A stretch of DNA of 64,000 nucleotides from Enchytraeus crypticus (lineage: Eukaryota > Annelida > Clitellata > Enchytraeida > Enchytraeidae), in the NCBI GenBank assembly GCA_905160935.1, contig CAJHZI010000877.1, forward strand, positions 51,929 through 115,928. The letters are read 5' to 3'. Below, one piece after another: positions 1,095 to 38,950 of this stretch. The position numbers and the translations under genes are program-made. Numbering within the stretch: the stretch's first letter is position 1; the number at the start of each line of letters is the position of its first letter. The notes beneath the pieces are model-generated. The model was not told the DNA's origin. It saw only the letters and a list, made by a program, of their open reading frames with translations, and ran no database searches.

Positions 1095-1239
1095 TCATAG
1101 ATTTTTGAAAGCTTTAGTGAGTTTGAGAATGTCCGAGAGGAAGAAGTTGTTTTGCTGCAGAAGATTGTAGAAGAATTCCGGAGCATCCATCCTCATCTGG
1201 ATAAGCTCAGCCAACATGGGTCCGTTGACTTCCGCAAAC
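1095..1239 (-). CDS. Gene B exon 10: C-terminal half of SAM domain
   Basis: The acceptor ends in tgtgtag and the exon opens with G, completing the Trp codon split from the previous exon (phase 2). It encodes [12 protein letters not shown], the second half of a SAM domain, then a Gln/Asn-rich helix, and stops at TGA (1097-1095). The matching exon of gene A aligns along its whole length, including the E-A-P-E / D-A-P-E-F segment. Confidence 0.88.
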
Positions 1240-1354
1240 CTACACATAAAATAAAAACAGTAACTTTATCCAAGATAACATCAGGCATAGATACAATGAA
1301 ATTAAAGAAAATAAATTAGCATGAGGTCAATGCATATAAAATAAAAAGCCAGTA

Positions 1355-38500: not shown

Positions 38501-38950
38501 CCTGTCTTGTGACTTTGAAGGCTGGTCTGTTGCTGGTATAGGTAGGGCTTCTATTTGCGGAGAAGGAATCTGTGCTTGTGAAGGCGGGGCCTGAAATTTT
38601 GTAGGCGGAGCCTGCACTTGTTTAGGCTGAGCTGGATTAGACTGTTGAGTCTGCACTTGTTTAGGCTGAGCTGGATTAGGCTGTTGAGCCTGCACTTGCT
38701 TAGGCTGCGCTGGATTAGGCTGTTGAGCCTGCACTTGTTTAGGCTGAGATGAATTAGGCTGTTGAGTTAGTTCATTGCAGTATATAGATGAGGCAGAAGT
38801 TCTACCGCTGTGCACCCTAGAACTGCTTAGACCGCTGCTTGTTCTGCTTCTTATGTGCTTGTCTGTATCACTAGATGGCGGCCTCTCAGTATCTGCTGAT
38901 TTCTGTCTTTGCACCACCGCAGCAGTCCGGTCACGTGATGAATTGCTCAT
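25328..38950 (-). CDS. Gene A: ARM-TIR-SAM protein, 834 aa, 10 coding exons
   Basis: Coding exons in order of transcription are 38950-38262, 37330-37037, 36103-35941, 34761-34425, 32793-32641, 30844-30617, 29803-29702, 27162-26929, 26504-26351 and 25478-25328. The sum is 2505 nt, with intron phases 2,2,0,1,1,1,1,1,2 and a single stop at the end. Predicted parts: Gln/Pro-rich N terminus (1-229), helical block (230-327), armadillo-like repeats (about 328-535), short linker, TIR (about 586-700) and SAM (about 767-834). The TIR shows M-H-I-F-L-S-Y-Q-W, I-D-V-D-S-M and Glu656 in C-R-T-E-A-E-Y, which by spacing to V-I-P-V aligns with the SARM1 catalytic Glu. A NAD-cleaving or signalling role is inferred. 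Gene B lies 4.1 kb downstream on the same strand and is a paralogue. An AATAAA overlaps the stop codon; another lies near 24796. Confidence 0.9.
26175..26275 (+). mobile_element. SINE-like tail, family 6
   Basis: Close match to 11175-11275 (gacggtagctcgagtgtgtc to ccttgacgttaaacacac). Lies in a gene A intron. Confidence 0.6.
26351..26504 (-). CDS. Gene A exon 9: linker and first half of SAM domain
   Basis: 154 nt, acceptor aaatgcag (phase 1), donor gcttg|gtgagg (phase 2). Encodes a Ser/Glu/Lys-rich linker then W-S-Q-D-D-V-R-S-W-L-I-E-N-K-L. The split Trp codon matches gene B. Confidence 0.9.
26800..26930 (-). mobile_element. tRNA-derived SINE (family 1) abutting an exon
   Basis: Inverted copy that includes the B-box region (ggatttgaaccccgc on the plus strand). 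Its 5' part appears disrupted by about 12 bp and runs into the donor of gene A exon 8, whose ag|gtcggta matches the A-box region aagtcggtaag of the SINE. Confidence 0.75.
26929..27162 (-). CDS. Gene A exon 8: C-terminal half of TIR domain
   Basis: 234 nt, phase 1 on both sides. Begins by completing the split Glu codon (E-A-E-Y-T-F-R-L-H-K), then V-I-P-V, G-Y-N-P-D-G-W-L-G and K-V-V-Y-D-F, then a helical tail (F-Y-Q-G-L-F-R-G-L-R). Acceptor ttcgacag, donor gtcaag|gtcggt. The donor may derive from the adjacent SINE. Confidence 0.87.
27365..27462. repeat. (CT)n microsatellite
   Basis: About 95 bp of CT-rich repeat with TGTT and CTAT interruptions. On the minus strand it is purine-rich. Confidence 0.96.
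27485..29590 (-). mobile_element. 5'-truncated CR1/L2-like LINE
   Basis: The reverse transcriptase is nearly intact in a 520-codon ORF (29559-27997), with Y-R-P-I-S-N-L, L-D-L-S-A-A-F-D-I-I-D-H, R-G-V-P-Q-G-S-V-L-G-P and F-Y-D-D-D in place of the usual YADD box. A frame change near 27990 leads to the C-terminal part (27984-27670) with L-H-W-L-P-V and K-T-H-L-F-P-P. The 3' UTR contains ggatgatgtcagggacgtcc. Endonuclease missing. It sits in the gene A intron that separates the two TIR halves, in the same orientation as the gene. The altered catalytic box and frameshift mean it is not active. Confidence 0.88.
29702..29803 (-). CDS. Gene A exon 7: central TIR domain
   Basis: 102 nt, phase 1 on both sides, acceptor gattgattcag, donor aactg|gtcaga. 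Encodes [12 protein letters not shown] and S-P-N-C-R-T. Identical in length to gene B exon 7. A short (TTGA)n run directly precedes the acceptor. Confidence 0.9.
30150..30325 (+). mobile_element. LINE 3'-end fragment (as 8084-10290)
   Basis: Keeps G-K-R-S-R-G-V-P-R-L and the ccagtaggcagtgcattaat tail. Lies in a gene A intron, antisense. Confidence 0.75.
30393..30616. repeat. About 34-bp minisatellite beside the TIR exon donor
   Basis: Five or six units of ctagggtttagataagaacc-ctataactatata. It starts 1 bp after gene A exon 6. At its far end (about 30415-30440) there is a second copy of the last 17-20 nt of the exon with its donor. Confidence 0.9.
30617..30844 (-). CDS. Gene A exon 6: linker and first half of TIR domain
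   Basis: 228 nt, acceptor acaacacag, donor catgg|gttagt, phase 1 on both sides. Encodes a Gly/His/Gln-rich linker of about 40 residues then M-H-I-F-L-S-Y-Q-W-D, L-K-E-E-G-F-N-V-W-I-D-V-D-S-M. Gene B has this region fused to the preceding ARM exon. Confidence 0.88.
30885..31140 (-). mobile_element. Family 3 SINE-like repeat with (ATC)n/(GTC)n end
   Basis: A run of ATC and GTC trinucleotides followed by cttaaatctcagtttaacc and agggtcgggattcaatagac. The right part (31050-31140, gcatcccacgtcagttgtgg) is not found in the other copies. Confidence 0.65.
31311..31440 (-). mobile_element. Family 3 SINE-like fragment
   Basis: (ATC)n then cttaggtcccagttgaatcagg and ttctggagcctggtcgc. Confidence 0.55.
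31850..32160. repeat. (AAT)n-rich tract
   Basis: Imperfect AAT repeats, interrupted at 32030-32120 by a unique GC-richer segment. Confidence 0.9.
32163..32272 (+). mobile_element. 3'-tail fragment of the GYLDD-type LINE
   Basis: Matches 61985-62090: tgatggcctcgagtagccgg, attcagcacgtattgcttga, ccaggttctttacaccgggg, then A and AAT repeats. Confidence 0.8.
32265..32500. repeat. (AAT)n tract
   Basis: AAT/ATT repeats extending from the poly(A) end of the LINE tail. Confidence 0.93.
32641..32793 (-). CDS. Gene A exon 5: last armadillo-like helices
   Basis: 153 nt, acceptor actttttcag, donor cacgcg|gtaacc, phase 1 on both sides. Encodes L-Q-R-L-A-T-E and L-Q-A-Q-G-A-L-W-I-L-K-N, aligning with the start of gene B exon 6, then a basic tail. 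Confidence 0.88.
33120..33144. repeat. (TC)n microsatellite
   Basis: Short run of TC dinucleotides in a gene A intron. Confidence 0.95.
33205..33760. repeat. 34-bp minisatellite array
   Basis: About 16 almost identical units of attagctcagatagagtagc-gatattaattaata. Related but looser aattagctcagacaactatt words lie between the array and the exon 5 acceptor (32800-33080), so it seems to have grown from intron sequence near that acceptor. Confidence 0.96.
34008..34245 (+). mobile_element. LINE 3'-end fragment (as 8084-10290)
   Basis: Matches the last 230 bp of the LINE, ending ccagtaggcagtgcactaagag. Ends about 180 bp from gene A exon 4. Confidence 0.85.
34425..34761 (-). CDS. Gene A exon 4: armadillo-like repeats
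   Basis: 337 nt, acceptor acatctcag, donor tagagg|gtaagc (phase 0 in, 1 out). Encodes A-L-N-R-L-A-A-N-D-N-N-K, A-L-P-L-Y-V-K-A-M and E-G-L-W-T-L-A-F-K-C-K, close to gene B exon 5. Confidence 0.92.
35512..35545. repeat. (CT)n microsatellite
   Basis: Directly at the 3' end (in sense) of the family 2 element at 35546, so probably its tail. Confidence 0.95.
35546..35912 (-). mobile_element. Family 2 SINE-like repeat, near full length
   Basis: Same structure as 1434-1795, from the cccgtgttgtg head (right end) to the ggcagtgcactgaag(ag)n tail (left end). It ends about 30 bp from gene A exon 3. Confidence 0.8.
35941..36103 (-). CDS. Gene A exon 3: armadillo-like helix
   Basis: 163 nt, acceptor gatcaacag, donor ctacag|gtactg (phase 2 in, 0 out). 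Encodes L-K-E-L-I-I-G-L-M-N-L-L-Y and S-G-A-V-A-T-L-Q, ending C-K-A-L-L-L-Q, the counterpart of C-Q-A-L-L-L-L in gene B. Confidence 0.9.
36104..36345. repeat. (ATCA)n-rich tract at an acceptor
   Basis: Degenerate ATCA/AATA tetranucleotides beginning at the gene A exon 3 acceptor. Confidence 0.88.
36665..36930 (-). mobile_element. Family 3 SINE-like repeat
   Basis: Left part cccttaaatcccagttcaacc ... agggtcgggatgcgaataga, right part gtcgccttctacgacacgtg to the cggacacaacaccggg head. Confidence 0.75.
37037..37330 (-). CDS. Gene A exon 2: conserved N-terminal helical block
   Basis: 294 nt, acceptor gcggatag, donor gaaag|gtttca, phase 2 on both sides. Encodes S-E-L-F-Q-K-V-W-R-T-H-F, L-Y-G-N-M-K-D-S-L and L-L-C-N-I-S-D-K-C-E-P-L-C. 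Aligns with gene B exon 3 without gaps at its start. Confidence 0.87.
37345..37600. repeat. 36-bp and 18-bp TTAACATTTAC minisatellite
   Basis: Units of taacatttactttaacagtt-aatttaacatgtgcat grading into 12-18 bp versions. It lies in the intron directly upstream of the exon 2 acceptor. Confidence 0.93.
37795..37955 (+). mobile_element. Family 4 repeat
   Basis: ccttggactgaatatccggattc ... gatgttgtcatggacaacag ... tagcactctaatcg, then (TTG)n. Confidence 0.65.
37976..38261 (-). repeat. 32-bp minisatellite seeded by the gene A exon 1 donor
   Basis: About nine units. On the minus strand each reads agttacaatcatgaccag|gtaatagcttacag: an exon-end-like part, a donor (gtaata or gtaaga) and an acceptor-like ttacag. 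The real exon 1 end (atcattaccag|gtagag) forms the first unit. The real donor is a weaker consensus match than those of the copies. Confidence 0.9.
38262..38950 (-). CDS. Gene A exon 1: Gln/Pro-rich N terminus
   Basis: 689 nt from ATG to donor accag|gtagag (phase 2). Ser/Arg-rich start, then imperfect Q-P-N-P-A-Q-P-K-Q-V-Q-A repeats (about residues 65-115), then L-V-D-L-M-S-S-I-K and L-S-E-D-F-S-Y-L-S helical segments. An in-frame TAA lies about 30 nt upstream of the ATG. A ttttccag 10 nt before the ATG could be an acceptor of a 5' UTR intron. Confidence 0.78.

Follow-up and report, generated by a model that had tools for sequence, protein, structure and literature searches.

A family of ARM-TIR-SAM genes in the annelid Enchytraeus crypticus, apart from SARM1 and with a candidate NAD+-cleaving TIR domain

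SARM1, the best-studied animal TIR enzyme that cleaves nicotinamide adenine dinucleotide (NAD+), has the order ARM-SAM-SAM-TIR, with two SAM domains between an armadillo (ARM) region and a terminal TIR domain. A survey of TIR proteins gave SARM1, whose TIR is C-terminal, a group of its own and assigned many of the invertebrate TIRs to a mixed group 18. ARM-TIR proteins are a named class in the oyster (PMC4346834), and the available sections of an Aplysia survey give 11 ARM-TIR genes in a table and 10 in the text, besides 3 SARM genes, under the rule that a TIR plus a SAM makes a SARM (PMC9334734). A TIR-SAM gene was reported in amphioxus, with a recovered cDNA (PMC2575513). The ecTIR-DC families (Gerdol et al. 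2017, as cited in PMC6321704, PMC6836662 and PMC5549309) are, according to the citing passages, TIR proteins of invertebrates that vertebrates are said to lack; ARM-like motifs are attributed to family 6, along with a Death domain and two TIRs. Here, we describe two genes, A and B, in the terminal 64 kb (the window) of the 115,928-base contig C769 of an Enchytraeus crypticus assembly (524 Mb, 802 contigs), each of which encodes ARM, TIR and SAM in that order. No description of this order was found among the literature matches listed, which mostly exclude subscription papers, and one may be in print.

Judged from the sequence, A and B may represent a family of ARM-TIR-SAM proteins apart from SARM1 that acts as an ARM-controlled, SAM-clustered, NAD+-cleaving TIR, a reading to which we give a probability of about 0.5. 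Like SARM1 and its relative TIR-1, they contain ARM, SAM and TIR modules, and control by oligomerisation is a plausible parallel; unlike SARM1, they have an internal TIR with one SAM after it, and they form a separate clade of separate genes. Both proteins combine an ARM-type region with a TIR, as invertebrate ARM-TIR proteins do by definition, and they resemble the mollusc proteins (PMC4346834, PMC9334734) in forming several genes counted apart from SARM. The mollusc proteins, which could be compared by description only, are described in the available text without a SAM; Pfam misses the SAM of A and B too, so one may have been overlooked there. The amphioxus protein (PMC2575513) also joins a TIR with a SAM, and no ARM region is mentioned in the portion of that report available, whereas ecTIR-DC family 6, as the citing papers describe it, differs in its Death domain and second TIR. 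The ARM-TIR-SAM family probably belongs with the ARM-TIR proteins already known from invertebrates, and its architecture is less isolated than an earlier, sequence-only reading of the window had implied, since ARM-TIR and TIR-SAM proteins have already been published.

The gene models were built from minus-strand stop-to-stop open reading frames (ORFs) of the window that were compared with one another, with exons added from other genomic loci and joined by GT-AG sites and phase matching; B exon 5 was missed by the self-comparison and recovered through those other loci. Gene B has 10 exons (window 38950-25328, minus strand) and gene A has nine (19708-1095, minus strand), giving single open frames of 834 and 1104 codons, respectively. 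The unforced best splice score would give 866 codons for B and 1123 for A. The donor of A exon 4 and the B exon 8/9 junction are phase-conserved choices and these junctions rest on homology, the length of 834 codons following from the sites picked at the latter. The intron phases (2,2,0,1,1,1,1,1,2 in B and 2,2,0,1,1,1,1,2 in A) agree if B exons 5 and 6 are represented by one fused exon in A. Two exon lengths, 163 nt and 102 nt, are identical to the base between the genes, and the 19 exons contain no stop or frameshift. At codon positions 1/2/3, A and B differ 25/15/49 times in 108 codons of the TIR and 44/35/69 times in 109 codons of the ARM region, and the concentration of these differences at third positions is a sign of protein-level constraint on both domains.

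The sequence-only reading had proposed single frames of 834 and 1208 codons, matching intron phases and unlike N termini. The frame of B was reproduced, the phases match once the fusion in A is allowed for, and the N-terminal sequences do differ; the 1208 codons of A were not recovered. We suspect that the discrepancy in A (1104 versus 1208) is N-terminal, with an upstream exon supplying the surplus. An AG also stands directly before the first ATG of A (19708), so that this exon could be joined by splicing to an ORF further upstream (21216-20851), which has a phase-0 donor at 20934. No paralogue support was found for this ORF, and the paralogue on contig C177 has a Met in apparently the same exon as A exon 1, by a weak exon match (E 0.023).

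Pfam found one TIR in each full-length protein (TIR_2, 77 and 71.6 bits), a marginal Arm match (20.7 and 14.9 bits, cut-off 20.6), no Death domain, and no SAM up to E 1. Across six ARM regions of the family, five were matched by Pfam Arm at E 0.5 (best 1.5e-5), and a profile of the six matched Vac8, catenins and designed ARM proteins in the PDB. Run against the PDB with a limit of E 10, a profile of six SAM segments found 30 distinct sequences. Every one is SAM-bearing by name, which we take as a guide to their content: 18 were ETV6 constructs and the others included liprin-beta-1, SHANK2, SHANK3, neurabin-1, SMS1, DGK-delta, SAMD12, SARM1 and TIR-1. The best E-values (7.6e-6) belong to chains with several SAM copies and are low because of those copies; the best single-SAM chain was SHANK2 (4.1e-4). 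Most of these alignments cover the first half of the domain and three span most of it, and the reversed alignment, used as a control, matched one unrelated PDB chain at 1.2. When the segments were searched singly, Pfam SAM_1, SAM_2 and SAM_3 matched 3/6, 2/6 and 2/6, respectively (best 2.3e-4); the segment of B was unmatched by the Pfam SAM models, and that of A had matches below the cut-off only (SAM_PNT 0.069, SAM_3 0.17). In the C177 copy, which lies outside the SAM training set, both half-exons were found in order behind the TIR (6.4e-5 and 9.8e-17), and in the 261 kb searched the best match of the half-exon profiles outside the seven SAM-bearing loci was 0.27. We regard a C-terminal SAM in this family as established at the sequence level, with one SAM per protein in A and B, split over two exons. 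The proposed order of ARM, TIR and a single C-terminal SAM was borne out by the gene models, the Pfam TIR and ARM matches and the family SAM profile; on the domain models themselves, the TIR was clear, the ARM marginal, and the SAM absent from the full proteins by Pfam and detected by the family profile.

Further copies, which had been anticipated beyond the window, are present in the genome. Eight loci have both ARM and TIR exons: A, B and a third copy, C, on C769, one on C177, two on C195 (C195a and C195b), and one each on C590 and C439. The search scores the best candidates only, so that such copy counts are lower bounds. Copy C is on the plus strand (C769 ~39361-51474), ends 455 bases away from the window, and lies tail-to-tail with A, 1.5 kb from the stop of A. 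TIR_2 was matched in all eight copies (E 0.001), and the ARM, the TIR and both SAM half-exons occur in that order in seven. Over the ARM, TIR and SAM columns, A is 48.0% identical to B and 50.3% to the C177 copy, and B is 49.8% identical to the latter; the family tree resolved no close pair, A and B included. As the closeness of A and B is matched by a copy on another contig, the simple tandem duplication that had been proposed is not supported, and the family reads, on these identities, as old and dispersed rather than as a recent tandem pair. Models with phases 1,1,1,1,1,2, which were required beforehand, exist for all four loci C, C195a, C195b and C590. None of these four models is complete, and all extend into sequence without homology (C exons 1 and 5, C195a exon 4, C195b exon 2, C590 exons 1 and 4), and that of copy C uses no acceptor at the homologous TIR2-TIR3 place. 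The TIR, ARM and SAM alignment segments of the other copies were hand-joined at homologous junctions. Four TIR loci (C364, C456, C100 and C436) match the B TIR query and not the ARM exon, and were left out of the eight. Three of these contigs (C364, C456 and C100; loci L001, L002, L004, L006-L008) carry another TIR type, with a SYQWDKQ...CWLDIxQMGGGDxLY...SxNC-like motif, in several copies on C364.

The best PDB matches of the family TIR profile were Cat1, a CRISPR-associated TIR (1.4e-7), the plant protein RPS4 (1.8e-5) and a chain named ADP-ribosyl cyclase (2.2e-4), which we take to be NAD-cleaving, followed by a SEFIR protein (6.7e-4), TLR6 (0.0017) and RPP1 (0.0058), the last presumably an NADase TIR; TLR1 was also present. 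The SARM1 and TIR-1 chains were matched at 0.13-0.38. A Glu (column 71, SPNCRT-E-A) is invariant in the eight alignment rows. When the exon ORFs were read directly, EA[EQS]Y was found at this Glu in 8/8 copies, the preceding exon ending in SxxCRx (SPRVRT in C195b); an intron splits the Glu codon in four modelled genes (A, B, C590 and C195b), and the other four copies were hand-joined. The residue aligns with the Glu of SVWCVRE in RPS4 and of SDWCWDE in Cat1, presumably the catalytic one. Since the Glu is at the expected position in all eight copies, NAD cleavage by these TIRs is plausible. The TIRs of Cat1 and RPS4 resemble those of the family in their profile match and aligned Glu, albeit with modest scores; they are joined to other partner modules and are not known to have an ARM-SAM pairing.

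The A and B proteins would be cytosolic, with the ARM region keeping them inactive or sensing a ligand or partner. Once the proteins are activated, self-association of the C-terminal SAM would bring the TIR domains together, and the TIRs so assembled would act in immunity or stress by cleaving NAD+ or producing a nucleotide signal; the unlike N termini would determine the localisation or what is sensed. From the domain anatomy observed here, we infer the regulation and the catalysis, and an ARM-restrained, SAM-clustered NADase would be the likeliest mechanism. Several points weigh against it. TLR6 ranks above RPP1, so that enzymes are not set apart by the match list. In the family TIR (PNCRTE), the Cys is not preceded by a Trp as it is in RPS4 and Cat1, and a TIR may have the Glu and yet serve as an inactive scaffold. 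The single-domain SAM scores are weak, the displayed alignments having i-values of ~7 and worse, and not all SAM domains polymerise. Two copies deviate: no SAM was found in the 7 kb examined downstream of the ARM and TIR exons of C439 (317018-331113), and C195b is without part of the TIR and without the Cys. A connection of A and B with immunity is conjectural.

With ARM, TIR and SAM all represented, as in SARM1, A and B might be SARM1 orthologues with a rearranged C-terminal end, which we regard as extremely improbable. A human SARM1 TIR query matched two loci, C414 (pieces 59% and 41% identical) and C407 (51%); at E 0.001 it missed all eight family copies. In frame order, Pfam gave SAM_2 (3.2e-5), SAM_2 (6.5e-8) and TIR_2 (6.1e-5) at C414:836500-846499 (L038), and SAM (0.0011), a second SAM (5.9e-10) and TIR (2.0e-5) at C407:814500-820499 (L039); at both, the end of an ARM region ahead of the SAMs was recognised by eye only and is absent by Pfam. 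The occurrence of two SARM1 genes in one invertebrate genome is recorded here as an observation in its own right. In a TIR tree of 16 rows, the branch between the eight rows of the family and the three of SARM1 has support of 99/99. Well supported in this tree are 3/13 inner branches, and the deeper ones are unreliable; two other short TIRs of the genome stand beside B (88/68) and Cat1 beside SARM1 (43/45), and neither placement is trusted. At E 0.01, the ARM profile had 35 matches in the PDB, none of them a SARM1 chain. Given the separate SARM1 loci and the split in the TIR tree, A and B are, as judged from these comparisons, not SARM1 genes; the difference from SARM1 claimed at the outset stands, and the phylogeny did not place them as SARM1 orthologues. 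Decay of A or B, as a pseudogene or a gene transcribed only in pieces, would fit the long introns with repeats and a reverse-transcriptase ORF, as well as several weak splice sites; the intact exons, the excess of third-position differences and the same-phase models at all four other loci tried (phases imposed) make it quite improbable.

The proteins could also be non-enzymatic adaptors, their TIR binding other TIRs (TLR, MyD88) and the ARM and SAM serving as scaffolds in a Toll-type pathway. For TIR proteins with an ARM region, the Aplysia and Loripes authors propose roles in signalling or as adaptors; the genome contains long LRR-TIR frames that are TLR-like by eye (L003, L005), and two TLRs are among the TIR-profile matches. 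The three best of those matches are, however, neither TLRs nor adaptors, and the Glu is kept in every copy, so that we consider this possible but doubtful. That the proteins are self-destruct effectors like SARM1 or plant TIRs, with NAD+ depletion killing the cell and the family members tuned to different triggers, is improbable. Such a role would accommodate the unlike N termini and the likeness to bacterial-defence TIRs in PADLOC, where at E 0.1 the bSEFIR model was matched by 8/8 TIRs and SAVED-TIR by 7/8; these matches, however, reflect kinship of fold and not function.

A second ARM-TIR family of several genes, equipped with a SAM of its own, would point to repeated combination or rearrangement of ARM control and SAM clustering among TIR enzymes. 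More tentatively, the family may stand for an animal NAD+-cleaving class independent of SARM1. TIR assembly in this class would be driven by a cryptic C-terminal SAM rather than by internal SAMs, and the trigger would be set by an ARM region whose N termini change fast; its members would form an expanded set of intracellular sensors in annelids and perhaps in most spiralians. B, with 834 amino acids, is a compact protein for testing ARM control and SAM clustering. For annotation, the failure of Pfam to detect the SAM of this family is a warning, and a rule that a TIR plus a SAM equals SARM could mislabel ARM-TIR-SAM genes.

Table 1. Exons of genes B and A, in window coordinates.
Feature	Position	Strand	Content
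B exon 1	38262..38950	-	start codon, Gln/Pro-rich repeat N terminus, first helix region; donor gtagag, phase 2
B exon 2	37037..37330	-	helical region ahead of ARM repeats; matches A exon 2
B exon 3	35941..36103	-	helical region; 163 nt, same as A
B exon 4	34425..34761	-	ARM repeats
B exon 5	32641..32793	-	last ARM repeat and linker
B exon 6	30617..30844	-	linker and first third of TIR
B exon 7	29702..29803	-	middle of TIR; 102 nt, same as A
B exon 8	26929..27162	-	TIR end; preceding intron splits conserved Glu codon
B exon 9	26351..26504	-	linker and first SAM half
B exon 10	25328..25478	-	second SAM half, stop
A exon 1	19509..19708	-	start codon in this model; further upstream exon possible
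A exon 2	18644..18940	-	helical region ahead of ARM repeats
A exon 3	14369..14531	-	helical region, 163 nt
A exon 4	12616..12943	-	ARM repeats; donor picked by phase conservation
A exon 5	5657..7423	-	last ARM repeat, ~500-residue linker (low-complexity by eye) with 10-residue repeat, first third of TIR
A exon 6	4634..4735	-	middle of TIR, 102 nt
A exon 7	3897..4061	-	TIR end
A exon 8	2912..3059	-	linker and first SAM half
A exon 9	1095..1239	-	second SAM half, stop

Repeats are found within and between the exons of A. A 30-bp repeat (window 6999-7236, 7.9 copies) lies within coding exon 5 and encodes decamers. Two extra copies of the 3' end of exon 4 (RCREAI.NE.GCV) are present in the downstream intron (12184-12632), among TGAT-type repeats, and are possibly spare splice donors or debris of local duplication. 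A 36-bp tandem array (13569-14074, 14.1 copies, 98% match) occupies part of intron 3; a 5-bp TATCG array (11607-11934) has 65.6 copies; and a long simple array (15918-17468) has open frames reading NHNHNHYL and DYDSSNDY. Reverse-transcriptase ORFs were identified inside B intron 7 (27997-29613, minus strand; RVT_1, 105.7 bits) and at 50409-52013 (plus strand; RVT_1, 60 bits).

Elsewhere in the assembly, C802 (15,205 bases) is the mitochondrial contig, recognised by COX1, and its gene order makes an annelid host most likely. Of its tRNA calls, 22/25 are on the gene strand, and the three on the opposite strand were taken as false. The plus-strand order, by eye, is nad5, nad4L, nad4, nad1, nad3, nad2, cox1, cox2, atp8, cox3, nad6, cob and atp6, which corresponds to the ground pattern of annelids, shared by earthworms and siboglinid tubeworms.

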